The translations under genes were made by a program, and so were the position numbers. From Prorocentrum cordatum (taxonomy: Eukaryota > Sar > Dinophyceae > Prorocentrales > Prorocentraceae): a stretch of 64,000 nt of DNA. The DNA lies in the NCBI GenBank assembly GCA_963575745.1, contig CAUYUJ010004757.1, positions 1 through 64,000 on the forward strand, written 5' to 3'. This document shows, one piece after another, positions 12,129 through 57,010 of this stretch (positions within the stretch are counted from its first letter, which is position 1; each line of letters opens with the position of its first letter). The notes under the pieces are model-generated. The model was not told where the DNA came from. It was given only the letters and a program-made list of their open reading frames with translations, and made no database searches.

Positions 12129-12159
<31 letters not shown>

Positions 12160-14719: not shown

Positions 14720-15669
14720 CCCGCCCAAGTTTCGCCCCGAACGCGTCTTCAACAAAATCAATCGCGCGTCGCGCGCGCCGCGCCCCATTCCCGCTGCGCG
14801 AGTGCCACTGTCGGAACGCTTTGCCTCCGCGCGGTGGCTCTTGTTTTCCACGGGCCAGCTGCGCAGCGCTCGACTTTCCGACGCGCCGGGCCCCGCAGGA
14901 AGCGCGCTATATGAATTGCCAAACGTCTTGTGATTGCGGAAATGCGTGGCCCACAGCGCGAGCTCAGAAGGCGAGGGCGGCAGCGCTTCGTTGTCGCGCT
15001 TGCCCAGAACCTTGGCGGCGAACGCGAAATAATTCCGCGGGGCGCTGCGCCGCGTGCCGAAGGATGCCGGCGCCCCGCCCACGAGGGCCGTCGCGCGCGC
15101 GGCCTCCAGCCGCGCGGCCCGCTGCGCATCCGAAAAATGGCCGTGCGCCTCGGCCGCTGCCCGCGCGCTCGCCGCCGGCCCAGCCCGCGAGCGGCTGGCG
15201 CACTCGCGCTCAAAGTACACGGCGGCAGGATAGGCGCGGGCTAGCGCCGCGCTCTGCGACGGCCTTGCACGCGATGCCGACTCAGAGGAGGAGTCCGACT
15301 CGGCGTCGAGGCACGCAGCGGGCCGGCGCGGTCGCGCGGCGGCAGAATGCCCGACCGCGCTGGCTGCCGCGCCCCTCGGCGGCGGGCCGGGCGGAGGGCG
15401 CGCCATGGCCATCCGCTCCAGGATCCGCGCCGCGCCCCCTGATAACGCCGCCGTGCGAACGCGGCGCGCCCGCGCGGTCGCTATGGAAACGCGCGCGAAG
15501 AGGGCGCCTCGAAGCCGTTCCACGTCCGAACGGGCGGCAACGCCCCGACGCAGGATACGCGGAAAACGTCGTTCTGCCGCATGCACGCCGCGACCTCCTC
15601 CGCGGCAGCGGCCGCGCTCCCGCGGCACCATTGCGCGACTTCGTCAAGCAAGCAGGGAGCGGCGGACAT
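14720..15669 (-). pseudogene. Tyrosine recombinase, N-terminal part only (D1)
   Basis: Begins at an ATG (15669) with DEVAQW, then AEEVAACMRQNDVFRVSCVG, matching the start of the X recombinase (VVEEVAKFLVSCDVFAISSV). After a likely intron (15439-15494) it continues ARILERMAMARPPPGPPP and reaches a core-binding-like segment with FAFAAKVLGKRDNEALPPS, ELALWATHFRNHKTFGN. The whole catalytic domain (R, HxxR, W, Y) is missing: the sequence runs into unrelated A/T-rich DNA near 14720. It cannot encode an active recombinase. Confidence 0.65.
15439..15494 (-). other. Putative intron, D1 recombinase
   Basis: 56 nt, GC-AG. Removing it joins the NGFEAPSS frame to RGAARILERM and removes an in-frame TAG. 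X has no intron here. The D2 equivalent is 48741-48796. Confidence 0.5.
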
Positions 15670-15839
15670 TGGCCTCGCGACCGCTTAAGCGCGCGGGGTG
15701 CACTAACCGCCGAGCTGCAGCGGGTGCGCGCATCCCGCTGCACGCCCGCTCCGGGTCAGAGCGCGCGGAAATCCGCCGAGCCGGTGGTCGCGCGCGCGGC
15801 AATGCCCGCGCCGCGCGCGCACGCTGCCCGCTACGCGAG

Positions 15840-18422
15840 CTACCCTGGCAGCTGGAGCCGCTGGAACTGCGGCCACAGCGTCGGCCAGCGCCACGTGGCA
15901 CCCAAATCGTCGAGTAACGATACTCCTCGCGGCTGGGCAGATCGGCAATGTTATCGTCTTCGCGCACGCGCAGAGCGCGCGTGTCGACGGCGGTGCGCGG
16001 CGGCGCGAGCAGGCGCCCGTAGCGACTCGGTCCACCAGCACCGACAAGTGCATTGCGCACGCGGTCGCCCAGAACGAGTGAACGATCGCGCAATGATCTG
16101 GCGCGGCCGCCGAGCCACGTCGGAAGGCGCACTCAGCGACCGTGTTGTCACTGTAGATGCGGACGTCGCGGCCGCGGATCCTGTTGCCCCACGTGCACAT
16201 TGCCAGCCCAACTGCGAGCATTTCCAGCCCGACAATCTGGGCGTCCCGCCGTTCGCGGAATTGCCTTGCGCGCGCTGGCAGGCGATGCGCCAGGGCGGGC
16301 ACGGGCACGTGAAGCGATGCTGCCCCGCCGTAATAGAGGCCCCGGCGGTTCCCACGCCGTATACTCGACGCGCCCGTCGATGCAAACCACGGCCGCAAGA
16401 TTCGGCGGCGTGCCGCGCGCGTCCGCGAGAATGACGACAGGCGGTCGCTCGTCGCCGCCGGCCCAAGCCCTGGTTTCCACTATATCATGGGCCAGGACTT
16501 CCGCCCACCAGCGCAGGCAGTACATCGCGTCCGCGGACAGCTTTGCCGAGCGGCCGTGCGCGTGCGCGAACAGCGGTCGCAGCATCGCGCGCCCCAACCG
16601 GCGGAACTGATGCGATGCACCCCAGGAGAGCGCGCCCGCCAGCTTGGACGCCGCCCCGGCGGTCAGCTCCTCCGCTGCCAAGGCGGCGCGGACCCGCTCG
16701 AGCCACTTGGCACGCTTGTCCGCGGATGGACGAGCGCGGAAGCCCCAGCGATCGACCTGGCCGCGCGGCCCAAGGCGCGCGCCACAGACGCGCGCGCGCA
16801 CGCTTGGCGGGCGCCTCGATCTGCAAGCCCAGGATAACAAGAGGGCGCCCGCACTCTGTCTTACGGTCCGCGATGGCCGCGTCGCCGAGCAGAGCGCGGA
16901 CCACGCGTTGCAGCGCGTGCCTTGCCTGCGCGCGGACACGCCGGCCCAGCGCGGCCGCCGTCGCGCGCGGCGGCGCGGGCGGCGCCAGCGACGCCCGTTC
17001 GACGCTAAACAAATCGTCCACGTATCGCAGTAACGCAACCCGCAGCAGCTTGCGGCAGATGCGGGTGATCAACGCGCCGACCCGTTCCCAGTTGTGCACG
17101 CTGCTCACTGACAAGGCAAGAGGGCCCCGCGACGGCGCGCGCGGGTCGCGCGCCCGCCTGCGCCGAAAGGAAGAGAGCCGTGTGCTGCGCGATGAACACT
17201 GTATCGCCGTGGCGGAACGCGACCCACGCGAAGTCGCGGTCCCGTGGGCACAGCGGCACGCGGCGAAAAGCCGCGTCGATGTCTGCCTTGAACAGGAGGA
17301 CATCTTCGCCGCCCGATGCTTCGTGCACCGTCTGAGCGACGTCGTAGAGCGAATCTATGGTGTCGTGCCGCCACTTCTCCTGCGCGCGGCGACGCGCCGG
17401 CCTGCACCTCTGGCGGCGCGTGCCCTGCGGCCTGGGGCTGGGTCGCTCTGTTGAGGTCGGCGGCGCTACAATCGTCCACCGAACGTACCTGCCGCGCGAA
17501 GGGCGGCGACTGGGGCGCCGGCGCCAAGGTCGGCGCGCCTTGGGCGAGCCGTCCTCCTTGATACCCTGCGGGACGCCGAACCGCGGGATGACGACGGCCC
17601 CGTCTGGCGGCGGCTCGGCCGCCGCGTCGCGCGGCACTGTCAGTCGCCCCAGCGCGGCGTCCGAACGCGCGGTCGCGAGAGGCGCGTCGGAATGCAGATC
17701 ACGTCTCGCGCGCTTCAGAACTTTGTCAGCAGACGTCTTGGCGCCTGCGACGCTTCGACACATCGGCGGGTCAGCTCCGCACGGCGCGCTTCGGGGGGGC
17801 CTGCCCTGAGCTCGTCTGCCGAGATGCAGCGCTTGTGGTCGCGCGGCTCGCCCACTCCCGAGCGAGGGAGAACCCCGATCAGGGGGGCGCCCTGCCGCGG
17901 CCGCGCGGTTCGCCGAGGCGGGGCAAACGCGAGCTCGCCTGACGGAAAAATTCGACCACCTCGGCATCTGGATGGTCGCATTCGTGCGCTATGCGCAGCA
18001 GCGGGCCGTTCGCGGACTCGGACACCCGCGCGACTGCGGGGTCGCAGCCGCTGAACCACCGCGCACATTCGCCAGAGGCCCGGAGCTGAGCGCCCATCTT
18101 TTCGATGCGTCTCGTGGCCGCCTCCCGATGAGCAATGACCTGCACGACGCGGAGCGCGCGCGCGTGCGCGCGCCAGCCGTGCGCGAGAGGGGTGGTGGGG
18201 GGGGGGCCGCGCCTCCTCGGCGGGCGCGGACGCGGCCCACTCGGCGGCCGCGCGCACGTCTTCCCCGATCGAGGACTCGCGCGCGAAGCCCTCGCGGCCC
18301 AAGTCAAGAACTGACTGCATGAAACGCAGCTTGGCCTCATCGCCGGCGCTTGCGCGCGCCCTCTTGGCCCAACCGCCGGCGTCGCCCGCGCCGGCGCGGG
18401 CGCGTTTCGAGAGACGCGTCAT
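15840..18422 (-). CDS. Pol: reverse transcriptase-RNase H of YR element D1 (intron-containing)
   Basis: ATG at 18422 (MTRLSKRARAG). Conserved landmarks in order: GAPLIGVLPRSG; VIPRFGVPQG; VRSVDDCSAADLN; FKADIDAAFRRVP (RT motif A); VSSVHNWERVG; LLRYVDDLF (motif C, catalytic aspartates at 17013-17018); VILADARG (first RNase H Asp); QIVGLEMLA (Glu); IYSDNTVAE (Asp); DDNIADLPSR. These lie in three frames, and removing eight GC-AG introns (listed separately) aligns nearly all of them. Two true lesions remain. A 2-nt insertion near 17165 moves the LPFGA motif out of frame; D2 shares it, so it predates their separation. A 1-nt loss near 15915 after SREEY is specific to D1. Probably inactive. Neighbours are gag upstream and recombinase downstream, the usual order. 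Confidence 0.75.
15958..16016 (-). other. Putative intron d7, D1 RNase H
   Basis: 59 nt, GC-AG, phase 1. Splicing gives VDRVAT|DDNIADLPSR, restoring the last RNase H block. X has an intron at the same point (26607-26660). Confidence 0.7.
16265..16328 (-). other. Putative intron d6, D1 RNase H
   Basis: 64 nt, GC-AG. Joins PGPLLR to QFRERRDAQIVG. Same position as X 26909-26958. Confidence 0.7.
16757..16814 (-). other. Putative intron d5, D1 pol thumb region
   Basis: 58 nt, GC-AG, phase 0. Joins ILGLQIE to VDRWGFRARPS. Same position as X 27442-27503 (AIS|TSRKGLIARPS), with equal residue counts on both sides. Confidence 0.75.
17108..17157 (-). other. Putative intron d4, D1 RT
   Basis: 50 nt, GC-AG. 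Lies between GCGCAG and TGAGCAGCGTG; the exon 3' of it starts the VSSVHNWERVG block. Same position as X 27815-27868. The 2-nt insertion just upstream blurs the donor frame in D. Confidence 0.65.
17380..17431 (-). other. Putative intron d3, D-specific, D1 RT
   Basis: 52 nt, GC-AG, phase 0, CAG|GC...CAG|GA. Joins NRATQPQ to EKWRHDTIDS. X reads straight through the homologous site (TEPQERMKHDTVD) with no intron. Confidence 0.75.
17489..17538 (-). other. Putative intron d2, D1 RT
   Basis: 50 nt, GC-AG, phase 0, AAG|GC. Joins EDGSPK to VRSVDDCSAAD. Same position as introns in X (28188-28241, GT) and Y (35996-36065, GA). Confidence 0.8.
17892..17938 (-). other. Putative intron d1b, D1 pol
   Basis: 47 nt, GC-AG, phase 0. 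Joins EVVEFFRQ to GAPLIGVLPRSG. Same position as X 28608-28665 (FFRE|GAPLIGTL). Confidence 0.75.
18140..18212 (-). other. Putative intron d1a, D1 pol N-terminal region
   Basis: 73 nt, GC-AG, phase 0. Joins SAPAEE to VIAHREAATRR. Same position as X 28870-28917 (RPPEE|VREEREGAV). Confidence 0.65.
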
Positions 18423-18679
18423 CTCAGAACGCTGCGAGGCGTCGCGCGTCACGAGCTGGCACTGGATTGCGCGCGAGATGCAAGAGCACGCGCCGGCGCG
18501 GGAAACGAAGAGCACGCGCCGGCCACAATTGTTCGACGTGAAGCACAAACGCGCCCGCGCTAGGTCCCGGCGGGCTCGTCTTGGCGAGCGGGCGGCCCGA
18601 AGCGGCCCGCTTCCCCGCGGCCCGAAGCCCAGGCTGTCGCGGGCGAGCGGGCGGCGGCGCCTGCGGTGGCGCACCATTC

Positions 18680-20105
18680 TCACCAGCGCGAGCGTTTCCA
18701 CTTGGCGTTGCCCCATCCGCTCTCTGCCGGGCGCTTCCCCCGCGACGTCTCGCCGCGGCTCCCGCTGCTGCCCGCGGCGGTCCACGCGCCGTCCGCGCCC
18801 TTGGCCCGCCGGGGGGGCGTGCCGCCGTCGCTCTTCGAGGGCTTGCTCGCGGGCTTAGCCGACCTGTCGGCGCGCGCGGCGAACAATCGCGCGGGTGCGT
18901 CGCCGCGGGCGGGCCTTTCGGCGCGGTCGTACGCCTGCTCGGCCACGGTCAGCAGCTCGCGGCAAACCTTCCGCGCCGCCACGTCTACCTGGCGGCGCGG
19001 GCAACGGGCCGCGGGTCCCTCGCCGCGCGCGCGCGAAGTCCGGCACTCCCGCGGCTGCTTTCTCGGCCCAGTCCTTGCGGCAGCTCTCGTCGTAGAGCAT
19101 GCCCAAATGGGCTTTCCGGCCGCCCAGGTGCGCGTTCATGGCCACCTGCGCGGACGAAGCGGCGCGCGACAGCGTGGCACCGATGGCGCGCGCGGGGGCG
19201 CCCTCATGCAAATTTGCTTGTGGGCCATGGCGGACACGTACGCCAGTTGGCCTGTCGCGGCTGCACCAATTGCGTAACTCGCAGGAAGCCGAAAGGCGGC
19301 GTTGCGAAGCACACTGCGCCGAACGCGCGCGGGGCGGGGTACGCATCGATGGCTACGCATCGATGGCCATGCGCCACTCGTTCCATGTCAGCGCGTTGGC
19401 GCCGGCGGCGGGGGGCGCGTCCAACGGCGACCAATCGCGCAAGTCCGCGCACGCGAAAGGGTTGGCCACCCCTTTCTTCTTCAGCTTCGCGACCTCGCCC
19501 GCAAGGGCGTCGACGCGCGCGCGCTCCTGACACCGCCGCGCAGACGTCGCGTCCGATCCAGCAAGCGGGTTCCGCGGACTCGCCTGGGCCACAATGCCGG
19601 CAGGAGGTCGTCGAGCTTGATCTCTTTCAGCCGTTACCCCGCGTCCACGTGGACGACTGGGGCTTCCTCTCTCTTGAGCAGGCGGGAAAGTTCGCCTATC
19701 GCGTCGCCCCCAATAGCGGGGCCCGCGCCGCCCGGCGCCCTGCCCTCGTGCGCCAGCGGGGCAATGCGCTTCTTTGCGACCTGCGCAGGACTCGCCGCGC
19801 GGCGTCGCGGCGCCACCGGGGCGAAAGCGCGCCGCGGCCTCGATGGCGCCAGCGAGAGCGTGCCTCTTCCCTGCGCTGGGGCGCGGATCAAGCTCGTCAA
19901 GTGCGACGGATGCGAGCGCGCGGGGGGTCCACACCTGCCACGGCCGCGCGCGCGCGCCGCCGACCCGCGCGGCAGGGCGCGAGGGCGGGCTCGCCTCGGC
20001 GCGGCCAAGAATCGCCACGAGGTCATTGAGGAACGCTTCCTTGTCTGGGCAGCCCTGCGGAGCAGGCGCCTCGGCAGTCAGAAACAAGCGCAACTCCTCT
20101 GCCAT
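18680..20105 (-). CDS. Gag-like protein of YR element D1 (intron-containing)
   Basis: ATG at 20105 (MAEELRLFLTAEAPAPQG). Blocks shared with X and Z gag: FLNDLVAILGRAE; VWTPRALASV; APVVHVDAGQRLKEIKLDD; VDALAGEVAKLKKKGV; ALTWNEWRMAID; LYDESCRKDWAEKAAAGV; LTVAEQAYD; and a basic, Trp/Lys-rich C-terminus ending NAKWKRSRW. No CCHC knuckle is visible. The blocks are in different frames; the RAE|VWTP break matches an intron shared with X (19935-19994), and the break before the coiled-coil-like block fits 19527-19579. The remaining frame changes are unresolved. Role inferred from position 5' of pol: RNA-binding structural protein. Confidence 0.6.
19527..19579 (-). other. Putative intron, D1 gag
   Basis: 53 nt, GT-AG, joining LLPALWPRR to ERARVDALAGEV. 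An alternative GC donor (to 19583) would be out of frame. X has an intron at n the same region (30240-30306). Confidence 0.45.
19935..19994 (-). other. Putative intron, D1 gag
   Basis: 60 nt, GC-AG, phase 0. Joins AILGRAE to VWTPRALASV. Same position as X 30640-30744. D2 equivalent 53247-53306. Confidence 0.7.
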
Positions 20106-20299
20106 TGTTAGCGCGCCCGAATCGCGTCGCCCCCTGTCGCGGCCGCCCCTGCTGCTGCACTGGCACGCTTCAAATGCGGCAGAGCAACGCAGCGCCCGCG
20201 CGGGCGCGCGCGCGCCGAGCACGCACGGGCACGAACGAGCGCAGAGGCAATTTCAAAAGCAATAATGGCATTTTGCCCGCGGACCCGTCGGCCGCTACG

Positions 20300-22002: not shown

Positions 22003-22213
22003 ATGGGCGCTCTGGGCAGCATTTGAGCGCGGGGAGAAGTCGCGCGAGCGTCGTGGCCCCTATTGGCTATCTTCTTGCTTGTCTCTAATGCTGCGGGACG
22101 GCTATTCACGGCTGAGGCGGATCCCCACCCTGCGCGCCCGCGAGCGCGTTCTCGTCGCAGGTGAATGGGATTTGTCTCACGCGTGGCCGTCCCGCTGGCG
22201 GGATGCGTTTTTC
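22003..22213 (+). repeat. Y terminal repeat A1
   Basis: 211 bp matching 40120-40330. Starts ATGGGCGCTCTGGGCAGC and ends GCGGGATGCGTTTTTC. Confidence 0.85.
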
Positions 22214-22495
22214 GCGCGCGTTCGCTTGGCCGCTCCGCCGCCTCTTTCTCCCGTCGCAGGTTCCCCCCCCCCCCCTCCTCCCGCGCGCGCGTCGCTTGAC
22301 CGCTCCGCCGCCTCTCTCTCCCGTCGCAGGTTCCCCCCCCCCCCTCCTCCCGCGCGCGCGTTCGCTTGGCCGCTCCGCCGCCTCTCTCTCCCGTCGCAGG
22401 TTCCTCCCCTCGCCCCTCCTCCCGCGCGCGCGTTCGCTTGGCCGCTCCGCCGCCTCTCTCTCCGTTGCAGGTTCCTCCCCTCCCCTCCTCCCCCA
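22214..22495. repeat. 62-66 bp tandem repeat in the Y leader
   Basis: Four to five units of CTTGGCCGCTCCGCCGCCTC followed by TCTCCCGTCGCAGGTTCC and a C-rich stretch. Confidence 0.85.
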
Positions 22496-22589
22496 CAGGT
22501 CCGCGCGTCTACTTCGTGGAGAGCACCTACGTCCCTCGTCGGTTTTGCAGCTCGAAGGTCAGGACACACATGAGTACGGGTCATCCTGG

Positions 22590-23160
22590 GCCGAATGCCG
22601 ACCCAGTGCGCAGTATGCCTGCGGATGCCGTATGCCGGCCACTTGTCCCCTGCGCTGTACTGCAAGTGCGCGCCGTATGCTGGTCCCTTGTGCGCAGTAT
22701 GCCTGCGGATGCCGTACGCCGGCAATCATTCCTCTGTGCAGTATGCCTGCAGTGTGTGCCGTATGCCGGCCATTGTGCGCAGTATGCCAGCGAATGCCGA
22801 ATGCCGGCCCTGTACGCAGTATGCCTGCGATTGCCGCCTGTCAGCCCCTCTCCGCAGCATGCCTGCGCGCGCGGCTGTATGCCTGCAAGTGGGCGCCGTA
22901 TGCCGGCCATTAAGCGCAGTATGCCTGCGAGTGCCGTATGCCGGCCCCCCCCCATAGCGCAGTATGCCTGCGTGCGTTGCAGTATGCCTGCAAGTGTGTG
23001 CCGTATGCCGGCCCTTGTACGCAGTACGCCTGCGGTTGCCGCATGCCGGCCCAGTGCGCAGTATGCCTGCGGATGCTGCCTGTCAGCCCCAGTGCGCAGT
23101 ATGCCTGCGGCGTGCGTTTGCCTGCCCTCTTGCGCTGGATGCCTGCGGGTTATGTCACGT
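22590..23160. repeat. ~30-bp tandem repeat in the Y leader
   Basis: Roughly seventeen units of the GCAGTATGCCTGCGGATGCC / GTATGCCGGCC type. Spurious cysteine-rich frames arise from it. It lies between A1 and gag of Y, comparable to the 179-bp repeats in the leader of X. Confidence 0.85.
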
Positions 23161-23309
23161 GCAACCGCCAGCGCGCGATAAGGACGCCGAGGGGGATACG
23201 TGCACGGCGCTTTCCGACGCGCGCGCAGCATCCATGGCGCTGGCTCGCTCAGACATCGTTGAGTTGCTTGGCGATCTGCCTGCTGGCGCATTCGGCACCG
23301 ACAAAGAAT

Positions 23310-23465
23310 CACAGCGCTGCGGGCGCGGCGCTCTGCGGCGTCCGCCACGCGGTCGCAGCAACCATCCTGCGATGGGTGCGGCGGCGCGTCGGGCGGCGCC
23401 GCCCCCGCCGAGCACAAGGCGGTGGCGGCGCGCGCCTCGACGGCGACGCCTGGCTGCTACAACCC
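23310..23465 (-). repeat. X terminal repeat B2 (right end of X)
   Basis: 156 bp identical by eye to 23868-24023. It ends the element; outer flank is Y sequence. Confidence 0.85.
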
Positions 23466-23482
23466 GGGCGGATGTGGGTGGG

Positions 23483-23867
23483 GCGAAACGCGCCCACAGG
23501 AAGATGGGCGCCCCGCCTGCCGCAAACAATTATGGAACCTGCGAGCGGCAAGGCTGGTCGGCGCCGCGGACGGGTCGCGCGCGCTCCCTCCGCGGCGGCC
23601 TAGCCGCCACGCATGACTGTTCCTGTGCGCGGCAAGGCTGGCCGGTGCCGCGGTGAACGCTCGCGTGCGCTCCCTCCGCGGCGACCTAGCCGCGGCGCAT
23701 CCGACAAAACCGCGGCTCCATCTTTCTCGCGTTTCGCGTGTCGTCGCCTCGCGGCGAAGCGCCCCTCGCAACCTCACGCGCTCGCTGCGGGGCGCGCGGA
23801 CGCACGCGCATCGCGTCCTCGCTGCTGTGCCCGCGAGACAGCATTCGTGCCTCGGCTGTTCGCTCAC
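23483..23867 (-). repeat. X repeat A2
   Basis: 385 bp matching A1 at 32653-33037 with about one difference (near 23562). It abuts B1 exactly at 23867/23868. Confidence 0.85.
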
Positions 23868-24023
23868 CACAGCGCTGCGGGCGCGGCGCTCTGCGGCGTC
23901 CGCCACGCGGTCGCAGCAACCATCCTGCGATGGGTGCGGCGGCGCGTCGGGCGGCGCCGCCCCCGCCGAGCACAAGGCGGTGGCGGCGCGCGCCTCGACG
24001 GCGACGCCTGGCTGCTACAACCC
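23868..24023 (-). repeat. X repeat B1
   Basis: 156 bp; starts CACAGCGCTGCGGGCGC in plus sense and ends GGCTGCTACAACCC. Lies about 100 bp beyond the recombinase stop codon. Confidence 0.85.
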
Positions 24024-24127
24024 AATGCAACAGCAGGCCGGCGTCAGCCGTCGTGTGCGCGCGCCCCCACTGCCAACGTCGCGACGTTTCTTACCGCGTG
24101 CGGGATGAAGGGCGCGACGAGCGCGCA

Positions 24128-25699
24128 TTACGGCTGAGATGCAGCGCCTGCGGGGTCATGGCCCGCGGCCTCAGGGCCCGCGCTGGCGGAGAGGGCCATG
24201 CCCTCGCCCGTCGCCGCGTCTTCCAGGGCAGGCTGGTCCAGGTAGGCCTTAAATGCGCCGGACCTCCAGTTGCCGGCTCTCAAGATGGTGGCGAGGCTCC
24301 CCCCGCTTTGGCGGAGAGTCTCCGTGTGGCCGCGCCGCAGGCACTTCGAGGTGATGCGGGCGGCATTGGGGAGGCCCGCCGCTTGCGCCGACCTGCGCAG
24401 GTTGCGGGTAATTGCTGGCACGGGGAGCACGCGCCCGGCTCTGGTCGGCTTTGCCAGGTGGGCAAAAGGAGACGCACCCGGCGCGAGGTCGCCCAGTAGG
24501 GCGCGCGGGGCGTGCACTGGGCAGGTCGCGGTGCAGATGCTGCACCAGCACGAGCGCCTGACTTCGCTAGGCCTGGGCTTATGCTTTCGCCTCGAGAGGT
24601 GGAGTACGACCGCCTCGCTCGTGTTGAAAAGCACGATGGTCGGCACTGGGCGGTCCAGTTCCTCCTGCGTGAACCGGAAGTTGGCCGCCCGTGCTGGGTC
24701 GCCTATGCTGATCAACAGCGCCTCCGAGGGAAGCCTCAAGGCCAGTGCGAAGGCGACTACGAACAGCGCTCGCACCTGAGGGTCAGGCACGTGCGGCAAC
24801 ATCGCGACTAACGCCTTCCGCGTGACAGGGGGAGGTCGCGGGTCAGGCTGGGGCGCACGGTGCTTGATCGCGGCCTTTGCGCGCGAAACGGCGGGGCTGC
24901 TGAACGCTGAGCGGTCGAGGCCCAGCAGCGTGCAGGCCTTGTCGACCTGGGCTTTGTAATTGGCAAAAGTGCCGGGGTTCGAGAAGCACAAAGCCCAAAG
25001 ACATAGCTCGTCCGCAGTTGGCGGGAGGGGGCTGTCCCCTTTTCCGAGCTGCGATTTGGCGAAACGGAACCAGCACCTCAGGCCGGCTGTCCACGTGCCG
25101 ATGGAGCGCGGGGCACCGTTGAGGACGGCGGCGCACCGGGCCCCGAATAAGGCGCGCTTCCTGAATTCGGGGTCGCTCGGCGCAACGGCCAGGCGTCGAA
25201 TTGCGGCGCGCGGGCCTCCTCTTCTCGAGCCCAGGGGCGACGCTTTCAGCGCGGCCGTCGCCCGCGCTAATTGCAGCCGCTGCGAGAGTACGCCCTCCTG
25301 TTGCGGGCGTGCGGGTGCCTGCGCGGCTGGACTCCTACCACCCGCCCGCGGGGGGGGCGAGGAGGACGAGGAGGAGGAGGAGGACGAGGAGGAAGAGGAG
25401 GAGCCAGCGGCGGAGGAGACACACGGCTGAGCGCACACGGGCGCCGCAGGCACCTCGTCACTCACGAACGCCGCCGCAGGTGGCGGGCCCGGCGGCGGCT
25501 TTGCTCGCGCGAAGAGCGCGATCGCGCGCTGCGCGTCGGGCGACAGATTCACGTAGCCGCTCCAGTTTTCCGGTGCGCCAACCGCCCGCACAGATGAGAT
25601 CGCGAACACATCGCAAGAAACCAGAAACTTGGCGACTTCCTCAACGACCGTGGGTGACGCCCACGGGGTCGCAACGGCGATCTGGTCGGCGAGCTTCAT
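24128..25699 (-). CDS. Tyrosine recombinase of element X (uninterrupted)
   Basis: A 523-residue single frame from ATG 25699. An N-terminal helix-rich part (VVEEVAKFLVSCDVFAI) is followed by a proline/serine-rich linker with a long poly-serine run (about residues 99-116), a core-binding region (SIGTWTAGLRCWFRFAKSQL, LWALCFSNPGTFANYKAQV), then the catalytic domain. Active-site boxes: ALRLPSEALL (Arg I), a Cys-rich insertion (CWCSICTATCP), KCLRRGH in the HxxR box (Lys where Y has His), GNWRSGAFKAYLD with Trp and the nucleophilic Tyr. This is the DIRS/Ngaro/PAT recombinase class, replacing integrase. Unlike gag and pol of the same element, it needs no introns to be open. The His-to-Lys change may still permit activity, since that box varies among YRs. 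Confidence 0.85.
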   Translation of the reverse strand: MKLADQIAVATPWASPTVVEEVAKFLVSCDVFAISSVRAVGAPENWSGYVNLSPDAQRAIALFARAKPPPGPPPAAAFVSDEVPAAPVCAQPCVSSAAGSSSSSSSSSSSSSSSPPPRAGGRSPAAQAPARPQQEGVLSQRLQLARATAALKASPLGSRRGGPRAAIRRLAVAPSDPEFRKRALFGARCAAVLNGAPRSIGTWTAGLRCWFRFAKSQLGKGDSPLPPTADELCLWALCFSNPGTFANYKAQVDKACTLLGLDRSAFSSPAVSRAKAAIKHRAPQPDPRPPPVTRKALVAMLPHVPDPQVRALFVVAFALALRLPSEALLISIGDPARAANFRFTQEELDRPVPTIVLFNTSEAVVLHLSRRKHKPRPSEVRRSCWCSICTATCPVHAPRALLGDLAPGASPFAHLAKPTRAGRVLPVPAITRNLRRSAQAAGLPNAARITSKCLRRGHTETLRQSGGSLATILRAGNWRSGAFKAYLDQPALEDAATGEGMALSASAGPEAAGHDPAGAASQP

Positions 25700-25894
25700 T
25701 CTGGCGCGCCGAGGGGCGCGTTGAGAGAGGTCGCCCCGCGCCCTGCGCGCCTCTCGATAGCCCCCTTCGCGTGTGAGAGCGTTCGTGCCGCGTTACTGAC
25801 GCGCCTTCCCGGGCGGCGCTCGCGTCTCTTTCTCTGATGCGAGCCTTGCGCGGGGTCGAGCGGGAGCGACCGGCGCTGGCCGGTGACGGCGCGG

Positions 25895-26377
25895 CTAAGG
25901 CGACGTCGTTTCGATTGGGTCGTCATCGACGTCCGCGCCCTGCGGCGCGCCCACCATCGTCGTGCGATAGTCGATGGTATCAGATTCGCTGCTTGAGCAG
26001 CTGGACTCCGGTTCGAGTTCCGTGCCGAAGGTGCAGAGTGCTTCGTCCAGTCGGCATTCGATGGCCAGCTGGATGGCCCGGAGGATCGTCGCGCGCGCGT
26101 CCCTAGCCAAGCCCAGGGACGGCACTGAATCCGCGGGAAGCCGCCCGAGCTGGAACCACGAGCGGATCCCGCGGCCCCGCAGCCACGAGGCCGCCGCGTC
26201 CGTGTCGCGCTGCCGCATCTCGCTCCTGAAAAGGGAATGCGCCGCGACCTTCGCGAGATGACTTGCGGTGTGCGCTCGCTGGATCAGCCGAACGTAACAG
26301 CACCTCCGCGGCGGTGTTCGATCGCGCGCCATGGATACGTTGAAAATGCCCTCGGGGCGGGGGCAGACTTGCCGCAT
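25895..26377 (-). CDS. Small acidic-tailed ORF between pol and recombinase of X
   Basis: 160 residues from an ATG at 26377, 90 nt beyond the pol stop and ending 195 nt before the recombinase start. Protein-like core: LIQRAHTASHLAKVAAHSLF, AAASWLRGRGIRSWFQLGRL, AILRAIQLAIECRLDEALC. Then a Ser/Glu/Asp-rich tail (ESSCSSSESDTIDY, ADVDDDPIE). I recognise no family. DIRS elements may carry a methyltransferase and Ngaro elements a hydrolase in this interval, but no motif of either is visible. The frame stays open upstream to 26530, overlapping the end of pol, so a longer product or read-in is possible. Confidence 0.45.
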   Translation of the reverse strand: MRQVCPRPEGIFNVSMARDRTPPRRCCYVRLIQRAHTASHLAKVAAHSLFRSEMRQRDTDAAASWLRGRGIRSWFQLGRLPADSVPSLGLARDARATILRAIQLAIECRLDEALCTFGTELEPESSCSSSESDTIDYRTTMVGAPQGADVDDDPIETTSP

Positions 26378-26466
26378 GACGCTACGCGCGAGCGAGCGCG
26401 GGGTGACGGGTGGGCGGGAGAGCAGGAGCGGGGGGAAGGAGAGCACTGGCGAGGCCGCGAGAGCGC

Positions 26467-29106: not shown

Positions 29107-29124
29107 GGCGAAAGCAAGCTGAAC

Positions 29125-29215
29125 GCACGCGCCGCGGAGGGCGAGGGGGGCGCCAAGGCGAGGGGCGCGCCGTGGAGGGCGAGGGGGGCGCCGTGGAGGG
29201 CGCAGGAGGGAGGGC
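29125..29215. repeat. Short GC-rich tandem repeat between gag and pol of X
   Basis: Repeats of GGAGGGCGAGGGGGGCGCC type, about 24-30 bp, in the intergenic gap (stop of gag 29340, start of pol 29106). Confidence 0.6.
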
Positions 29216-29339
29216 GGGGCCCGCGCATTCCTGGTGCGCCTCGGACCCTTTACCGCGTCGGACGCTCTAATTAGCAGCAAGCCCAAAATTCCGCGCGCCG
29301 TGCTGACGGCTGTGCCCGTCAGGCGCGCGCTGTCGCTGA

Positions 29340-33037: not shown

Positions 33038-33081
33038 GCCATCAGGGCGCGCGCGCGCGTCTCCGTGCGTCTACCGCGGGC

Positions 33082-37768: not shown

Positions 37769-37860
37769 AAGTAGCACAGGGCAATTTGTAGGGGGCGCAA
37801 AGGCTTGCGCGGCGAGCGCGTGACGACCAGGCCCGCCGCGAGAGGGGGCCCGCGGGCGCC

Positions 37861-39922: not shown

Positions 39923-39990
39923 GTCAAGCAGACCAGGCATCTGCGGTCTGCTTAGAGCGCGCTTGGGCGTCGTTCCGCCGAGCATGCATC

Positions 39991-40119
39991 GGGAGGCGTC
40001 GGCGAGGTTGCTCGGCTCCGCGACGCCGACTCGCGCTCACCCCACCGCCTGGCCTGGGCCTGCGCCAGTCGACGGTTGTGCCCTGCGTTAGCGCGGGCCC
40101 AGCCTCGACGCGACTTCTC
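39991..40119 (+). repeat. Y repeat B1
   Basis: 129 bp matching 40421-40549. Ends exactly where A2 begins. Confidence 0.85.
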
Positions 40120-40330
40120 ATGGGCGCTCTGGGCAGCATTTGAGCGCGGGGAGAAGTCGCGCGAGCGTCGTGGCCCCTATTGGCTATCTTCTTGCTTGTC
40201 TCTAATGCTGCGGGACGGCTATTCACGGCTGAGGCGGATCCCCACCCTGCGCGCCCGCGAGCGCGTTCTCGTCGCAGGTGAATGGGATTTGTCTCACGCG
40301 TGGCCGTCCCGCTGGCGGGATGCGTTTTTC
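40120..40330 (+). repeat. Y repeat A2
   Basis: 211 bp matching A1 at 22003-22213; followed by a 90-bp spacer (40331-40420). Confidence 0.85.
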
Positions 40331-40420
40331 CCCACCCGCCCGACCCTGCTGCGCGAGCGCACTGGCGTCGCAGTGGCTGCTAGTTGTGTCGAGGCTGGGC
40401 TGACCCAGCGCCAGGCTTGG

Positions 40421-40549
40421 GGGAGGCGTCGGCGAGGTTGCTCGGCTCCGCGACGCCGACTCGCGCTCACCCCACCGCCTGGCCTGGGCCTGCGCCAGTC
40501 GACGGTTGTGCCCTGCGTTAGCGCGGGCCCAGCCTCGACGCGACTTCTC
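40421..40549 (+). repeat. Y terminal repeat B2 (right end of Y)
   Basis: 129 bp, second copy of 39991-40119; its end at CGCGACTTCTC is the right terminus of Y. Confidence 0.85.
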
Positions 40550-40567
40550 GGGCCTACAACGGCAGTC

Positions 40568-41672: not shown

Positions 41673-41689
41673 GCATTCAAAAATGTGGC

Positions 41690-46256: not shown

Positions 46257-46257
46257 T

Positions 46258-48472
46258 TGTGGGCGCCCAACGCCATCGAAAGCGCGCGCGCTCGCTTGTG
46301 CTGCGTTGTGCGCGGGCACAAATTTCGCGCCCGCGCCTGGCCCGCGCGCGGGCGGGCAAGCTGGGCGCGCGGGCCGCCTCCCGCTTTCCTGCGCCGCGCG
46401 GCGCGCGGCCCCGCGAGAAGGGCCCGCGCGCGCGAGGCGGGGGGGCGTCAGCATGTGCCTCGCGGCGCGCGGCCCCACGCGAAGGGCCTGCGCGCGCGAG
46501 GGGGGGGGGGGGGGGAAGCGACGGCACGCGCCTCGCGGCGCGCGGCCCCGCGCGAAGGGCCCGCGCGCGAGGGGGGTGCGTCGTCACGCGCGTGGCTAGT
46601 CTGCTCTTCTGCTCGCTTTGCGTCGAACGCCCCGCGCAGGCGCGCCGCGGGGATCGCGTCGGGGCGGTTCGCGGCGCGCCTCGGGGTCGTGCGATGTGCA
46701 GGCATTGGTGCTTGCATCTCGCAGGCATGTGCGCTTGCGTCCCGCCGTGGCGGACGGCGCGCGCGCTTTCGATCTGGATGGCGGCAAGAAGCGCTGCGTC
46801 CGCGCGGCCATCAAGTTGGCCGGGCGCGAGAAGGCCGGCGTTCCCGCGCAGCGCGAGCGGCGCGCGCGTGCACGCTCGCGCGCAGGGTGATATGAAGGAG
46901 CTGCAGACGGCCGCGGGATCGGCCAGCGGGGACGCCAGTGCCGCCCTCCTCGCGTTTCTCCAAAAGAAGGACGAGGCTTGTCGACGCGACAGCGCGCGCC
47001 CGCCGCCGCGCGACGTCGCGCACGTCGCGTCGCAGGCGCCCGCGGCGGCCCACGTGGACATTTGTGCAACGCTCAAGACCGCGAGCCTCGAAGGCTTGCC
47101 CAGCGACCTCCTGCCCAGGCGATGCGCGGCTTGCCACGGCGGGGAGCGCGCGCCATCTTGCGCGCGACACTTGCGGCGTAGCTCCGACCTCGTGGATGAG
47201 CTTGCCAGCGAAGAGGCCAAGCTTCGGAAGCGCGGCATCGAAAAAGGTTTCGTCAACGTGAAGCTAGCCAGGTGGCTGCCGCAGCACCTCGCCGGGGCGC
47301 TTCGCGATGCCGACGAAGACGAAGCCAAGCTTTCGGAGGACCTGAAAAACTTAGCACAGGCGCAGCGCCTCACCGTCGCGTGCGCTCGCGCCGCGCCTAT
47401 TTCCTCGCGCGAGGCCATGGGGGCGAAGGCGACGCCCAAGCGCGTCATGCCGACGCTCAGCCAATGGCACCTCGCGTGGAGTCGCTACGCGGTCGGTGCC
47501 CACGCCACCGGCCAGCTGAGCTACGCCGCGGCCGCAGCCCATCGCGACGTCTGCATGGCGGTGGGCCTCGGGGCGGCCCGCAACAAGCGGCGGGTGCAGC
47601 TCGCGGTCTATTATGACGAGCAGGCCCGCAAAGATTGGGCGGAACGCTCGCGCTCTGGCGACCCGACCTTCGTGGCCCGCACGCGTTTTCTTGCGAATGT
47701 GTTTCCGCGCCGCGTTGGCCGCGCCGGTTGCGCGCAGGCAGATCGCGCGGCGAAGCGCGTGGACACCGCCATTCTCAATCGCGCAGAGGAGGCTTACGAT
47801 GCCGACGAAGCCGCAGCCAAGGCGGCGCCGGCTGAGTCGTCGGCAAAGGGCGGCACCAAGAGCGCCCAGGCCCCCTCGTCGCGTCGGCTCGCGCGGGGCA
47901 GCAGCCCCACTCCCCACCTATTCTTTCGCGCGGCGCGTTCGCAGGTGGCGACGGGCAAAGCCGCCGCGGGGAAGGGCCACGGCTCCGCGAGCGGTGGCAA
48001 GAGCGCGCAATGGTCGGGAAAGCGCTGGAACAGCTGGGGCTCGGCGGGCGATTACCACGGGCACAGCTGGGGCGCAGCGGATCGCGGCGGGGAGGTGAAT
48101 CGCAAGCCGCGCACGCCCCCGAGGGCCGTCAAGAGGGCCCGCCCATAGCGCCGCAGCTCCAGGGCGCAAGGGGGCCGCGGGCGCGCGGAGCACGCGGTGG
48201 CGCGCGGGCTCGCGCGGTGTCAAGAGTGACAGCGCGGGGGCCGAACACTTGTCGGCGCGCGGTGCATGCGAATTTAGCCGAACAATAGTCGGCGCGATGC
48301 CTTCTCACTCTTCGCAACCTACGCAAAGCAATGCGGCGCGATGCTTGGGCCGGTCCGCGCCGAAATTGCGCGGGCAATGAAACGGCCGACAGTTCGGCTC
48401 GCGCGCCATGTCATATTGCAGCGGCCGCGGCACACGCGGGTCGTTCCGCGCGCTCGCGTTCAGGTCCAGCCC
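46258..48472 (+). mobile_element. YR-type element fragment Z (gag only)
   Basis: Begins where U2 homology stops and ends where D2 begins in the opposite orientation. 46258-46891 is a leader with GC-rich near-repeats (CGCGGCGCGCGGCCCCGCG, three to four copies at 46390-46580). Then gag. No pol or recombinase follows before D2. Confidence 0.6.
46892..48148 (+). CDS. Gag-like protein of fragment Z
   Basis: A 418-residue single frame from ATG 46892 (MKELQTAAGS). Blocks match gag of X and D: ALLAFLQKKDEA; AHVDICATLKTASLEGL; DLVDELASEEAKLRKRGIEK; LSQWHLAWSRYAV; VYYDEQARKDWAERSRSGD; ILNRAEEAYDADEA; and a Gly/Lys/Trp-rich basic tail (SGKRWNSWGSAGDYHGHSW). It lacks the RAE|V(W/Y)TP block. The frame is open throughout, so either it has lost introns or those present are in-frame (for example around 47665-47730). 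It is the only complete uninterrupted gag of this type here. Upstream frame remains open to 46259. Confidence 0.65.
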   Translation: MKELQTAAGSASGDASAALLAFLQKKDEACRRDSARPPPRDVAHVASQAPAAAHVDICATLKTASLEGLPSDLLPRRCAACHGGERAPSCARHLRRSSDLVDELASEEAKLRKRGIEKGFVNVKLARWLPQHLAGALRDADEDEAKLSEDLKNLAQAQRLTVACARAAPISSREAMGAKATPKRVMPTLSQWHLAWSRYAVGAHATGQLSYAAAAAHRDVCMAVGLGAARNKRRVQLAVYYDEQARKDWAERSRSGDPTFVARTRFLANVFPRRVGRAGCAQADRAAKRVDTAILNRAEEAYDADEAAAKAAPAESSAKGGTKSAQAPSSRRLARGSSPTPHLFFRAARSQVATGKAAAGKGHGSASGGKSAQWSGKRWNSWGSAGDYHGHSWGAADRGGEVNRKPRTPPRAVKRARP

Positions 48473-48971
48473 GCCGCCGGCCCAGCCCGCGAGCGGCTGG
48501 CGCACTCGCGCTCAAAGTACACGGCGGCAGGATAGGCGCGGGCTAGCGCCGCGCTCTGCGACGGCCTTGCACGCGATGCCGACTCAGAGGAGGAGTCCGA
48601 CTCGGCGTCCAGGCACGCAGCGGGCTGGCGCGGTCGCGCGGCGGCAGAATGCCCGACCGCGCTGGCTGCCGCGCCCCTCGGCGGCGGGCCGGGCGGAGGG
48701 CGCGCCATGGCCATCCGCTCCAGGATCCGCGCCGCGCCCCCTGATAACGCCGCCGTGCGAACGCGGCGCGCCCGCGCGGTCGCTATGGAAACGCGCGCGA
48801 AGAGGGCGCCTCGAAGCCGTTCCACGTCCGAACGGGCGGCAACGCCCCGACGCAGGATACGCGGAAAACGTCGTTCTGCCGCATGCACGCCGCGACCTCC
48901 TCCGCGGCCGCGGCCGCGCTCCCGCGGCACCATTGCGCGACTTCGTCAAGCAAGCAGGGAGCGGCGGACAT
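48473..48971 (-). pseudogene. Tyrosine recombinase N-terminal fragment (D2)
   Basis: Same start as D1 (DEVAQWCRG, AEEVAACMRQNDVFRVSCVG) and the same intron-like segment (48741-48796). Truncated before the core-binding domain by junction with fragment Z. No catalytic part. Confidence 0.6.
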
Positions 48972-49141
48972 TGGCCTCGCGACCGCTTAAGCGCGCGGGG
49001 TGCACTAACCGCCGAGCTGCAGCGGGTGCGCGCATCCCGCTGCACGCCCGCTCCGGGTCAGAGCGTGCGGAAATCCGCCGAGCCGGTGGTCGCGCGCGCG
49101 GCAATGCCCGCGCCGCGCGCGCACGCTGCCCGCTACGCGAG

Positions 49142-51731
49142 CTACCCTGGCAGCTGGAGCCGCTGGAACTGCGGCCACAGCGTCGGCCAGCGCCACGTGG
49201 CACCCAAATCGTCGAGTAAACGATACTCCTCGCGGCTGGGCAGATCGGCAATGTTATCGTCTTCGCGCACGCGCAGAGCGCGCGTGTCGACGGCGGTGCG
49301 CGGCGGCGCGAGCAGGCGCCCGTAGCGACTCGGTCCACCAGCACCGACAAGTGCATTGCGCACGCGGTCGCCCAGAACGCGTGAACGATCGCGCAATGAT
49401 CTGGCGCGGCCGCCGAGCCACGTCGGAAGGCGCACTCAGCGACCGTGTTGTCACTGTAGATGCGGACGTCGCGGCCGCGGATCCTGTTGCCCCACGTGCA
49501 CATTGCCAGCCCAACTGCGAGCATTTCCAGCCCGACAATCTGGGCGTCCCGCCGTTCGCGGAATTGCCTTGCGCGCGCTGGCAGGCGATGCGCCAGGGCG
49601 GGCACGGGCACGTGAAGCGATGCTGCCCCGCCGTAATAGAGGCCCCGGCGGTTCCCACGCCGTATACTCGACGCGCCCGTCGATGCAAACCACGGCCGCA
49701 AGATTCGGCGGCGTGCCGCGCGCGTCCGCGAGAATGACGACAGGCGGTCGCTCGTCGCCGCCGGCCCAAGCCCTGGTTTCCACTATATCATGGGCCAGGA
49801 CTTCCGCCCACCAGCGCAGGCAGTACATCGCGTCCGCGGACAGCTTTGCCGAGCGGCCGTGCGCGTGCGCGAACAGCGGTCGCAGCATCGCGCGCCCCAA
49901 CCGGCGGAACTGATGCGATGCACCCCGGGAGAGCGCGCCCGCCAGCTTGGACGCCGCCCCGGCGGTCAGCTCCTCCGCTGCCAAGGCGGCGCGGACCCGC
50001 TCGAGCCACTTGGCACGCTTGTCCGCGGATGGACGAGCGCGGAAGCCCCAGCGATCGACCTGGCCGCGCGGCCCAAGGCGCGCGCCACAGACGCGCGCGC
50101 GCACGCTTGGCGGGCGCCTCGATCTGCAAGCCCAGGATAACAAGAGGGCGCCCGCACTCTGTCTTACGGTCCGCGATGGCCGCGTCGCCGAGCAGAGCGC
50201 GGACCACCACGCATTGCAGCGCGTGCCTTGCCTGCGCGCGGACACGCCGGCTCAGCGCGGCCGCCGTCGCGCGCGGCGGCGCGGGCGGCGCCAGCGACGC
50301 CCGTTCGACGCTAAACAAATCGCCCACGTATCGCAGCAACGCAACCCGCAGCAGCTTGCGGCAGATGCGGGTGATCAACGCGCCGACCCGTTCCCAGTTG
50401 TGCACGCTGCTCACTGACAAGGCAAGAGGGCCCCGCGACGGCGCGCGCGGGTCGCGCGCCCGCCTGCGCCGAAAGGAAGAGAGCCGTGTGCTGCGCGATG
50501 AGTACTGTATCGCCGTGGCGGAACGCGACCCACGCGAAGTCGCGGTCCCGTGGGCACAGCGGCACGCGGCGAAAAGCCGCGTCGATGTCTGCCTTGAACA
50601 CAGGAGGACATCTTCGCCGCCCGATGCTTCGTGCACCGTCTGAGCGACGTCGTAGAGCGAATCTATGGTGTCGTGCCGCCACTTCTCCTGCGCGCGGCGA
50701 CGCGCCGGCCTGCACCTCTGGCGGCGCGTGCCCTGCGGCCTGGGGCTGGGTCGCGCTGTTGAGGTCGGCGGCGCTGCAATCGTCCACCGAACGTACCTGC
50801 CGCGCGAAGGGCGGCGACTGGGGCGCCGGCGCCAAGGTCGGCGCGCCTTGGGCGAGCCGTCCTCCTTGATACCCTGCGGGGCGCCGAACCGCGGGATGAC
50901 GACGGCCCCGTCTGGCGGCGGCTCGGCCGCCGCGTCGCGCGGCGCTGTCAGTCGCCCCAGCGCGGCGTCCGAACGCGCGGTCGCGAGGGGCGCGTCGGAA
51001 TGCAGATCACGTCTCGCGCGCTTCAGAACTTTGTCAGCAGACGTCTTGGCGCCTGCGACGCTTCGACACATCGGCGGGTCAGCTCCGCACGGCGCGCTTC
51101 GAGAAGGCCTGCCCTGAGCTCGTCTGCCGAGATCTCCAGCGCTTGTGGTCGCGCGGCTCGCCCACTCCCGAGCGAGGGAGAACCCCGATCAGGGGGGCGC
51201 CCTGCCGCGGCCGCGCGGTTCGCCGAGGCGGGGCAAACGCGAGCTCGCCTGGCGGAAAAATTCGACCACCTCGGCATCTGGATGGTCGCATTCGTGCGCT
51301 ATGCGCAGCAGCGGGCCGTTCGCGGACTCGGACACCCGCGCGACTGCGGGGTCGCAGCCGCTGAACCACCGCGCACATTCGCCAGAGGCCCGGAGCTGAG
51401 CGCCCATCTTTTCGATGCGTCTCGTGGCCGCCTCCCGATGAGCAATGACCTGCACGACGCGGAGCGCGCGCGCGTGCGCGCGCCAGCCGTGCGCGAGAGG
51501 GGGGGCGGGGGGGGGCCGCGCCTCCTCGGCGGGCGCGGACGCGGCCCACTCGGCGGCCGCGCGCGCGTCTTCCCCGATCGAGGACTCGCGCGCGAAGCCC
51601 TCGCGGCCCAAGTCAAGAACTGACTGCATGAAACGCAGCTTGGCCTCATCGCCGGCGCTTGCGCGCGCCCTCTTGGCCCAACCGCCGGCGTCGCCCGCGC
51701 CGGCGCGGGCGCGTTTCGAGAGACGCGTCAT
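49142..51731 (-). CDS. Pol of YR element D2 with mutated YxDD box (inactive)
   Basis: Same architecture and intron positions as D1: 51450-51521, 51202-51248, 50797-50846, 50688-50739, 50414-50463, 50060-50117, 49568-49631 and 49261-49319 (all GC-AG). Three lesions distinguish it. Motif C reads YVGD instead of YVDD (codon GGC at 50322-50324), destroying a catalytic Asp. A 2-nt insertion near 50600 shifts frame just before FKADID. The LPFGA 2-nt insertion is shared with D1. Its RNase H end, by contrast, is better preserved than D1's (REEYRLLDDLGATWRW up to the stop at 49142). Confidence 0.75.
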
Positions 51732-51987
51732 CTCAGAACGCTGCGAGGCGTCGCGCGTCACGAGCTGGCACTGGATTGCGCGCGAGATGCAAGAGCACGC
51801 GCCGGCGCGGGAAACGAGAGCACGCGCCGGCCACAATTGTTCGACGCGAAGCACAAACGCGCCCGCGCTAGGTCCCGGCGGGCTCGTCTTGGCGAGCGGG
51901 CGGCCCGAAGCGGCCCGCTTCCCCGCGGCCCGAAGCCCAGGCTGTCGCGGGCGAGCGGGCGGCGGCGCCTGCGGTGGCGCACCATTC

Positions 51988-53417
51988 TCACCAGCGCGAG
52001 CGTTTCCACTTGGCGTTGCCCCATCCGCTCTCCGCCGGGCGCTTCCCCCACGACGTCTCGCCGCGGCTCCCGCTGCTGCCCGCGGCGGTCCACGCGCCGT
52101 CCGCGCCCTTGGCCCGCCGGGGGGGCGTGCCGCCGCCGCTCTTCGAGGGCTTGCTCGCGGGCTTAGCCGACCTGTCGGCGCGCGCGGCGAACAATCGCGC
52201 GGGCGCGTCGCCGCGGGCGGGCCTTTCGGCGCGGTCGTACGCCTGCTCGGCCACGGTCAGCAGCTCGCGGCAAACCTTCCGCGCCGCCACGTCTACCTGG
52301 CGGCGCGGGCAACGGGCCGCGGGCCCCTCGCCGCGCGCGCGCGAGAAAGGCGCGCGCCGCGAAGTCCGGCACTCCCGCGGCTGCTTTCTCGGCCCAGTCC
52401 TTGCGGCAGCTCTCGTCGTAGAGCATGCCCAAATGGGCTTTCCGGCCGCCCAGGTGCGCGTTCATGGCCACCTGCGCGGACGAAGCGGCGCGCGACAGCG
52501 TGGCACCGATGGCGCGCGCGGGGGCGCCCTCATGCAAATTTGCTTGTGGGCCATGGCGGACACGTACGCCAGTTGGCCTGTCACGGCTGCACCAATTGCG
52601 TAACTCGCAGGAAGCCGAAAGGCGGCGTTGCGAAGCACACTGCGCCGAACGCGCGCGGGGCGGGGTACGCATCGATGGCCATGCGCCACTCGTTCCATGT
52701 CAGCGCGTTGGCGCCGGCGGCGGGGGGCGCGTCCAACGGCGACCAATCGCGCAAGTCCGCGCACGCGAAAGGGTTGGCCACCCCTTTCTTCTTCAGCTTC
52801 GCGACCTCGCCCGCAAGGGCGTCGACGCGCGCGCGCTCCTGACACCGCCGCGCAGACGTCGCGTCCGATCCAGCAAGCGGGTTCCGCGGACTCGCCTGGG
52901 CCACAATGCCGGCAGGAGATCGTCGAGCTTGATCTCTTTCAGCCGTTGCCCCACGTCCACGTGGACGACTGGGGCTTCCTCTCTCTTGAGCAGGCGGGAA
53001 AGTTCGCCTATCGCGTCGCCCCCATTAGCGGGGCCCGCGCCGCCCGGCGCCCTGCCCTCGTGCGCCAGCGGGGCAATGCGCTTCTTTGCGACCTGCGCAG
53101 GACTCGCCGCGCGGCGTCGCGGCGCCACCGGGGCGAAAGCGCGCCGCGGCCTCGATGGCGCCAGCGAGAGCGTGCCTCTTCCCTGCGCTGGGGCGCGGAT
53201 CAAGCTCGTCAACTGCGACGGATGCGAGCGCGCGGGGGGTCCACACCTGCCACGGCCGCGCGCGCGCGCCGCCGACCCGCGCGGCAGGGCGCGAGGGCGG
53301 GCTCGCCTCGGCGCGGCCAAGAATCGCAACGAGGTCATTGAGGAACGCTTCCTTGTCTGGGCAGCCCTGCGGAGCAGGCGCCTCGGCAGTCAGAAACAAG
53401 CGCAACTCCTCTGCCAT
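51988..53417 (-). CDS. Gag-like protein of YR element D2 (intron-containing)
   Basis: ATG 53417. Same blocks as D1 gag and the same intron at 53247-53306 (RAE|VWTP). It has a 9-bp insertion near 52350 (FAARAFLARARR) and lacks the 12-bp CGATGGCTACGCAT duplication found in D1 near 19340-19365. Ends NAKWKRSRW at 51988. Frame breaks elsewhere are as in D1. Confidence 0.6.
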
Positions 53418-53645
53418 TGTTAGCGCGCCCGAATCGCGTCGCCCCCTGTCGCGACCGCCCCTGCTGCTGCACTGGCACGCTTCAAATGCGGCAGAGCAAC
53501 GCAGCGCCCGCGCGGGCGCGCGCGCGCCGAGCACGCACGGGCACGAACGAGCGCAGAGGCAATTGCAAAAGCAATAATGGCATTTTGCCCGCGGACCCGT
53601 CGGCCGCTAATCCAGAAGCCGCATTAAAGTGATCATTTGTTTTTT

Positions 53646-56784: not shown

Positions 56785-57010
<226 letters not shown>

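Follow-up and report, generated by a model that had tools for sequence, protein, structure and literature searches.

How might a retroelement carry many introns in its coding region, when elements that reverse-transcribe spliced RNA lose them? The question is raised by a 64,000-nt stretch of Prorocentrum cordatum DNA (assembly GCA_963575745.1, contig CAUYUJ010004757.1, positions 1 to 64,000 of the forward strand; hereafter the window). The window is repeat-rich, has a base composition of ~70% GC and contains candidate tyrosine recombinase (YR) retrotransposons, namely D (copies D1 and D2), X and Y, together with a gag fragment, Z. Judged from their DNA, D, X and Y are probably elements of the DIRS order whose gag-pol holds spliceosomal mini-introns of host type and which are copied from unspliced RNA. 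The interruptions of the frames, their splice signature, the shared positions, the uninterrupted homologues and the split repeats of X and Y are read directly from the DNA; from these we infer splicing itself and the use of unspliced sense RNA as the template of reverse transcriptase (RT).

D1, 14915..20297, minus strand: gag-pol and the N-terminal part of a putative recombinase; 3'-truncated, lower bound approximate
X, 23310..33071, minus strand: split direct repeats at both ends; nested in Y
X gag-pol (gag, RT, RNase H), 26560..30620, minus strand: 11 curated introns; bounds approximate
Y, 22003..40553, plus strand: split direct repeats; interrupted by X
Y pol (RT, RNase H), 35600..37680, plus strand: diverged; six curated introns; bounds approximate
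Z, 46889..48148, plus strand: gag fragment
D2, 48469..53609, minus strand: second D copy; 3'-truncated

Probable short introns in the gag-pol frames

When D1 was compared in translation with 24-31 kb of the window, RT (LRYVDDLF), RNase H (SDNT) and pieces of gag were found in differing frames. The gag-pol pieces of D1 and X (minus strand) and of Y (plus strand) lie in shifting frames, and deletion of segments of 46-79 nt yielded one protein that aligned along its full length, as an earlier note on this DNA had claimed for gag and pol. The aligner used dynamic programming on two genomic sequences, codon by codon, with introns permitted in either; starts of G[TCA] and ends of AG were imposed by the fit. 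The curated set comprises 29 introns at 17 positions (11 in D1, 11 in X, six in Y and one in Z) with a median length of 55 nt, and 22 of them are not multiples of three. The segments are thus short, as had been noted, but the upper length of 105 nt in the proposed range (42-105 nt) was unneeded. Near-identical copies of all 11 D1 introns are present in D2, which brings the instances to 40; the earlier count of more than 35 is therefore reached, although 11 of the 40 are D2 duplicates and 29 are distinct. The donors were 22 GC, six GT and one GA (n = 29); AG stood before the donor in 19 of 29 introns, the acceptor was CAG in 23 and a G followed it in 23. The curated introns are as follows.

D1 intron g1, 19278..19356, minus strand: Z uninterrupted
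X intron g1, 29966..30020, minus strand: Z uninterrupted
D1 intron g2, 19146..19201, minus strand: Z uninterrupted
X intron g2, 29830..29889, minus strand: Z uninterrupted
D1 intron g3, 18989..19034, minus strand: motif-aware fit only
X intron g3, 29649..29715, minus strand: motif-aware fit only
Z candidate intron g3, 47672..47737, plus strand: 66 nt, in frame
D1 intron p1, 18140..18212, minus strand: motif-aware fit only
X intron p1, 28870..28917, minus strand: motif-aware fit only
D1 intron p2, 17892..17938, minus strand: D1/X fit
X intron p2, 28608..28665, minus strand: D1/X fit
D1 intron p3, 17489..17538, minus strand: D1/X fit
X intron p3, 28188..28241, minus strand: D1/X fit
Y intron p3, 35996..36065, plus strand: D/X acceptor; GA donor by eye
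D1 intron p4, 17380..17431, minus strand: private; X uninterrupted
Y intron p5, 36134..36206, plus strand: private; motif-aware fit only; X uninterrupted
D1 intron p6, 17108..17157, minus strand: donor by eye; upstream frame 2 nt off X
X intron p6, 27815..27868, minus strand: Y uninterrupted
Y intron p7, 36454..36506, plus strand: private; X and D uninterrupted
D1 intron p8, 16757..16814, minus strand: Y gapless in alignment A1
X intron p8, 27442..27503, minus strand: Y gapless in alignment A1
X intron p9, 27287..27341, minus strand: private; D and Y uninterrupted
Y intron p10, 36892..36944, plus strand: private; X and D uninterrupted
D1 intron p11, 16265..16328, minus strand: D1/X fit
X intron p11, 26909..26958, minus strand: D1/X fit
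Y intron p12, 37299..37353, plus strand: private; donor from motif-aware fit; X and D uninterrupted
Y intron p13, 37450..37506, plus strand: private; X and D uninterrupted
D1 intron p14, 15958..16016, minus strand: donor from motif-aware fit; Y uninterrupted
X intron p14, 26607..26660, minus strand: Y uninterrupted

Ten positions are common to D and X, whose proteins are ~49% identical; sharing between these two elements had been pointed out in the earlier note. Direct D1/X fits put nine of the ten at matching columns and phases, with some boundaries differing from the curated ones. The tenth, g3, is counted as shared because D and X were each fitted to Z, and its place may differ by one codon between D and X. 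At p3, which lies before VR[SA]VDD, the acceptor is also common to Y, so that the suggestion of one position shared by X, D and Y holds for the acceptor; the GA donor of Y was picked by eye, and the fits placed the donor differently. At 12 of the 17 positions the joined residues were gapless against a contiguous homologue in the window (p8 via alignment A1), whereas g3, p1, p2, p3 and p11 have no uninterrupted homologue there. Some junctions were only modestly similar (5/22 residues at p12, 6/20 at p5). Z is without g1 and g2, whether by loss or by absence through descent, and may have kept g3. When the whole of Y was fitted to D1 and to X, the alignment outside pol was poor, and these fits were set aside. 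One further candidate intron of Y, at 37202-37271, stands outside the curated set.

Context, shared positions and divergence of the introns

Allowing GT/GC/GA..AG introns raised the score of the D1/X pol alignment to 1246, from 345 when none were allowed. The fit was compared with a null of 60 simulations in which random sequence was inserted at shared positions. The AG|...|G context, which was not scored by the fit, was observed in 8 of 17 fitted D1/X pol introns as against 1.4% in the null (at most 2 per simulation), and exact coincidence in place and phase was observed at 6 positions (null mean 0.57, maximum 3). Intron pairs at shared positions gave z values of 0.5-3.5 as compared with 2.9-8.1 for the flanking exon blocks (8 pairs; mononucleotide shuffles); intron DNA is more diverged than the flanking exons. 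In favour of joining, X pol matched RVT_1 (E = 0.0011) once its pieces were joined, whereas the coding-strand frames of D1, X and Y, translated straight through, matched nothing in Pfam at E<=1. By the unscored context, the matching junctions and this divergence, the earlier proposal of spliceosomal introns in YR retrotransposons was upheld.

The signature resembles that published for dinoflagellate introns, which share GC/GT/GA donors and AG|G acceptors with the elements. In P. cordatum the donors are GT in 24.7%, GC in 51.4% and GA in 23.8% of introns, with an AGG acceptor in 79.7% and a coding GC content of 65.9%; Symbiodiniaceae and Polarella have similar values, with AGG more frequent (PMC10666404, excerpt). 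The likeness does not extend to length, since P. cordatum introns average 4709 bp (same excerpt) and those of the elements measure 46-79 nt, nor to GA donors, which are rare in the elements.

Several results weigh against introns. A model with frameshifts only scored 1339 on D1/X pol, above the 1246 obtained with introns, and when donors were left free, acceptors GC (1334), CG (1328) and GG (1311) outscored AG (1307); the observed total score of 1232 also lay within the random-insert null (mean 1164, maximum 1309). As the frameshift-only and free-dinucleotide models fit equally well or better, the score alone does not prove introns; it was dropped as proof, and reliance was placed on the unscored context, the shared positions and the uninterrupted homologues. 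GA donors, which make up 23.8% in P. cordatum (PMC10666404, excerpt), number 1 of 29 in the curated set. The D copies are decaying, with frame-breaking indels and with D1/D2 substitutions spread evenly over codon positions (11, 12 and 14); for this reason the substitution pattern was uninformative as a test of exon selection and was rejected. The D copy also differs from X by 2 nt near p6. Database matches of the joined proteins were poor: X pol matched RVT_1 with E = 0.0011 at 19.2 bits, below the curated cut-off of 29.6 bits, and its PDB match reached only E = 0.3 (HIV-1 RT); D pol matched zero Pfam families; and Y pol preferred an unrelated Pfam family (E = 0.051) to RVT_1 (E = 0.11). Finally, the recombinase of Y consists of conserved pieces in different frames, but its fit against the X recombinase scored 137, inside the range of 60 shuffles (mean 104, maximum 144), and the X recombinase is a single open frame. 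The introns that had been claimed for the Y recombinase were thus not sustained.

Class assignment of D, X and Y

Alignment A1 shows conservation of RT (YVDD or FVDD) and RNase H residues among X, D and Y; by their motifs we tentatively take both domains to be of DIRS type. The putative recombinase of X was named from its catalytic motifs, its position and the element type.

X tyrosine recombinase (putative), 24131..25792, minus strand: one open frame, 554 codons from stop to stop; homologous to a piece of D1

Its R and R..W..Y motifs, with K for the usual H, are presumably a tyrosine recombinase signature. Library matches of this frame were weak and unrelated (DUF7461; an NCBIfam secretion-scaffold model, E = 0.11; PDB, E = 1.8), and its predicted structure was uninformative (predicted local distance difference test, pLDDT, 42). 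The homology of D1 to the X recombinase stops at 14915. Given gag, RT, RNase H, the putative recombinase and the A1...B1A2B2 repeats, D, X and Y appear to be Ngaro-like elements of the DIRS order. Ngaro differs from PAT in lacking a methyltransferase domain. A search for the motif [DNS]PP[YFW] drew a blank in the stretch that separates RNase H from the recombinase in X, Y and D1, its one match (SPPW) lying elsewhere in X, and on this motif evidence Ngaro is favoured over PAT. Searches of viral contigs and genome contigs confirmed no outside relatives.

Elements of this kind would easily be missed by annotation based on open reading frames and domains, since Pfam recognised nothing in the unjoined frames at E<=1. 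This read-through search covered D1 on both strands, 32.0-40.4 kb on the plus strand and 21-41 kb on the minus strand. Among single open reading frames, Pfam matched only DUF7461 (E = 0.039).

Split repeats and recent mobility

X repeat A1, 32653..33071, minus strand: 411/422 aligned columns identical to A2
X repeat B1, 23868..24023, minus strand: 156/156 identical to B2
X repeat A2, 23483..23900, minus strand: partner of A1
X repeat B2, 23310..23465, minus strand: partner of B1
Y repeat A1, 22003..22213, plus strand: 211/211 identical to A2
Y repeat B1, 39991..40125, plus strand: 133/135 aligned columns identical to B2
Y repeat A2, 40120..40330, plus strand: partner of A1
Y repeat B2, 40421..40553, plus strand: partner of B1

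In X and Y, which the comparison covers (the 3' ends of D1 and D2 are truncated), the split repeats follow the order A1...B1A2B2 downstream of the recombinase, with pairs 97-100% identical. By these repeat coordinates X lies inside Y, and the repeats of Y, 98.5-100% identical, make Y look young. The near-identical repeats and the nesting of X in Y suggest that recently mobile copies retained their introns. D1 and D2 are 98.4% identical across 5157 aligned columns and begin at the same base at the 5' end, and their flanking DNA is unrelated.

Some smaller features adjoin the elements or lie within them. A minisatellite of ~58 bp (20435-21227) lies immediately 5' of D1, three copies of a ~179-bp tandem repeat (31395-31997) occupy the 5' region of X, and a satellite of CCTCAG type, spaced at 16 and 22 bp (40572-41680), begins directly after repeat B2 of Y. 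Z (plus strand) and D2 (minus strand) face each other across 46889-48469, and D2 breaks off at 48469.

Proposed replication with introns and rival explanations

According to the mechanism proposed, the host spliceosome would remove the introns from the mRNAs encoding Gag and Pol, and full-length RNA that escapes splicing would become the template for new copies, in which the introns are kept. Two RNA pools would then exist, spliced mRNA for Gag and Pol and unspliced RNA for reverse transcription. That copying kept the introns is indicated by the repeats of X and Y, which look recently regenerated, and by the two insertions of D, each in a different flanking context; that the reverse-transcribed RNA was unspliced is a reasonable inference. 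We see evenly balanced chances for a broader proposal, by which a DIRS-order lineage has carried many introns over a long evolutionary span and repeated copying, genome RNA, being unspliced or antisense, is told apart from mRNA by its splicing, and the introns may serve replication or disguise against the silencing of intronless DNA. Mammalian HUSH silences intronless DNA (PMC8770142, excerpt).

Real introns could also persist if the template were an antisense transcript, in which the splice sites would not be recognised. Nothing in the window contradicts this, but the usual models of the DIRS order use sense RNA, and we consider it rather unlikely; an antisense template has been discussed for Penelope-like elements and is compatible with intron retention (PMC3846280, excerpt). 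Spread as DNA, by recombinase-driven excision or circle integration or by segmental duplication, would spare the introns any encounter with splicing. The open recombinase frame of X (554 codons) would suit such a route, and Cryptons, a group of DNA transposons, employ a tyrosine recombinase (PMC3212892, excerpt). This route is nevertheless improbable, since the families have conserved RT and RNase H residues in common, the split repeats are as described for YR retrotransposons (PMC4157794, excerpt) and the flanks of D1 and D2 are unrelated.

The two remaining explanations are both very improbable. If the elements were pseudogenes in decay, broken by frameshifts and chance insertions, the introns would be an artefact of a flexible fit, as could be argued from the higher score of the frameshift-only model, the position of the observed score inside the null range and the decay of the D copies. 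However, the splice context and the shared positions exceed the random-insert null, the junctions are gapless in uninterrupted homologues, and Y has six pol interruptions although its repeats are young. Recent introner insertions, unconnected with the replication cycle, would agree with the recent introner activity reported in dinoflagellates (PMC11453091, excerpt) and with the AGG direct repeats that flank many of the introns. Ten positions shared at ~49% protein identity speak against recent insertion, as does the lack of any hairpin excess, expected from the foldable terminal inverted repeats of introners, among the 29 introns (folding energy mean z -0.16 against shuffles, 1/29 below -2), between which matches were few and 13-17 nt long. 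Host-type introns copied within unspliced sense RNA remain the preferred explanation.

Relation to known retroelements

Intron-containing Penelope-like elements were reportedly first described by Arkhipova (2003). Like the elements in the window, Penelope-like elements are retroelements that retain spliceosomal introns, but they have another endonuclease and no tyrosine recombinase, and one spliceosomal intron in the open reading frame of one element is described, compared with six to eleven here (PMC3846280, excerpt). Ngaro/PAT-type elements of the DIRS order share gag, an RT with YVDD or FVDD, RNase H, a recombinase (putative here) on the same strand and the A1...B1A2B2 repeats, an order of repeats known from Ngaro, PAT and VIPER elements (PMC8547959, PMC6681497 and PMC4157794, excerpts). 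They differ in that papers on such elements (PMC3266345, PMC6681497 and PMC4157794) do not contain the word intron. Symbiodinium retrotransposons, DIRS included, carry embedded DNMT genes that are termed intronless (PMC5890265, excerpt). Among the matches listed from the open-access literature, as far as their accessible text goes, none was found to describe spliceosomal introns in elements of the DIRS order. Such introns may be new, pending RNA evidence.

LTR elements such as Ogre, and retroviruses, have distinct RNA pools, in which splicing yields additional products, whereas here many introns must be removed for the basic gag-pol frame. BARE likewise has separate RNA pools for translation and for replication (PMC3735527, excerpt). 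The keeping of many introns would imply a template RNA that either escapes splicing or is an antisense transcript. Should RNA data bear this out, Penelope-like elements would not be the only retroelements in which introns persist, and those introns would be built-in tags that mark the template RNA.

Other features of the window

No tRNAs or Rfam families were found in the window. Further duplicated blocks, ~88-99% identical, pair 10910-13507 with 42069-44759, 16-4029 with 45125-46258 and 59563-62697, 4026-4628 with 5792-6393, and 6394-7317 with 62991-63906. Coding-like open reading frames without a Pfam match occupy 54586-58736 on the minus strand, where codon scoring, applied in search of host genes, flags 54.7-58.3 kb; the CGDFNMAL motif in one of them is, we presume, reminiscent of endonuclease/exonuclease/phosphatase proteins. 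A microsatellite at ~56.7-57.05 kb translates as Ser-Leu repeats.
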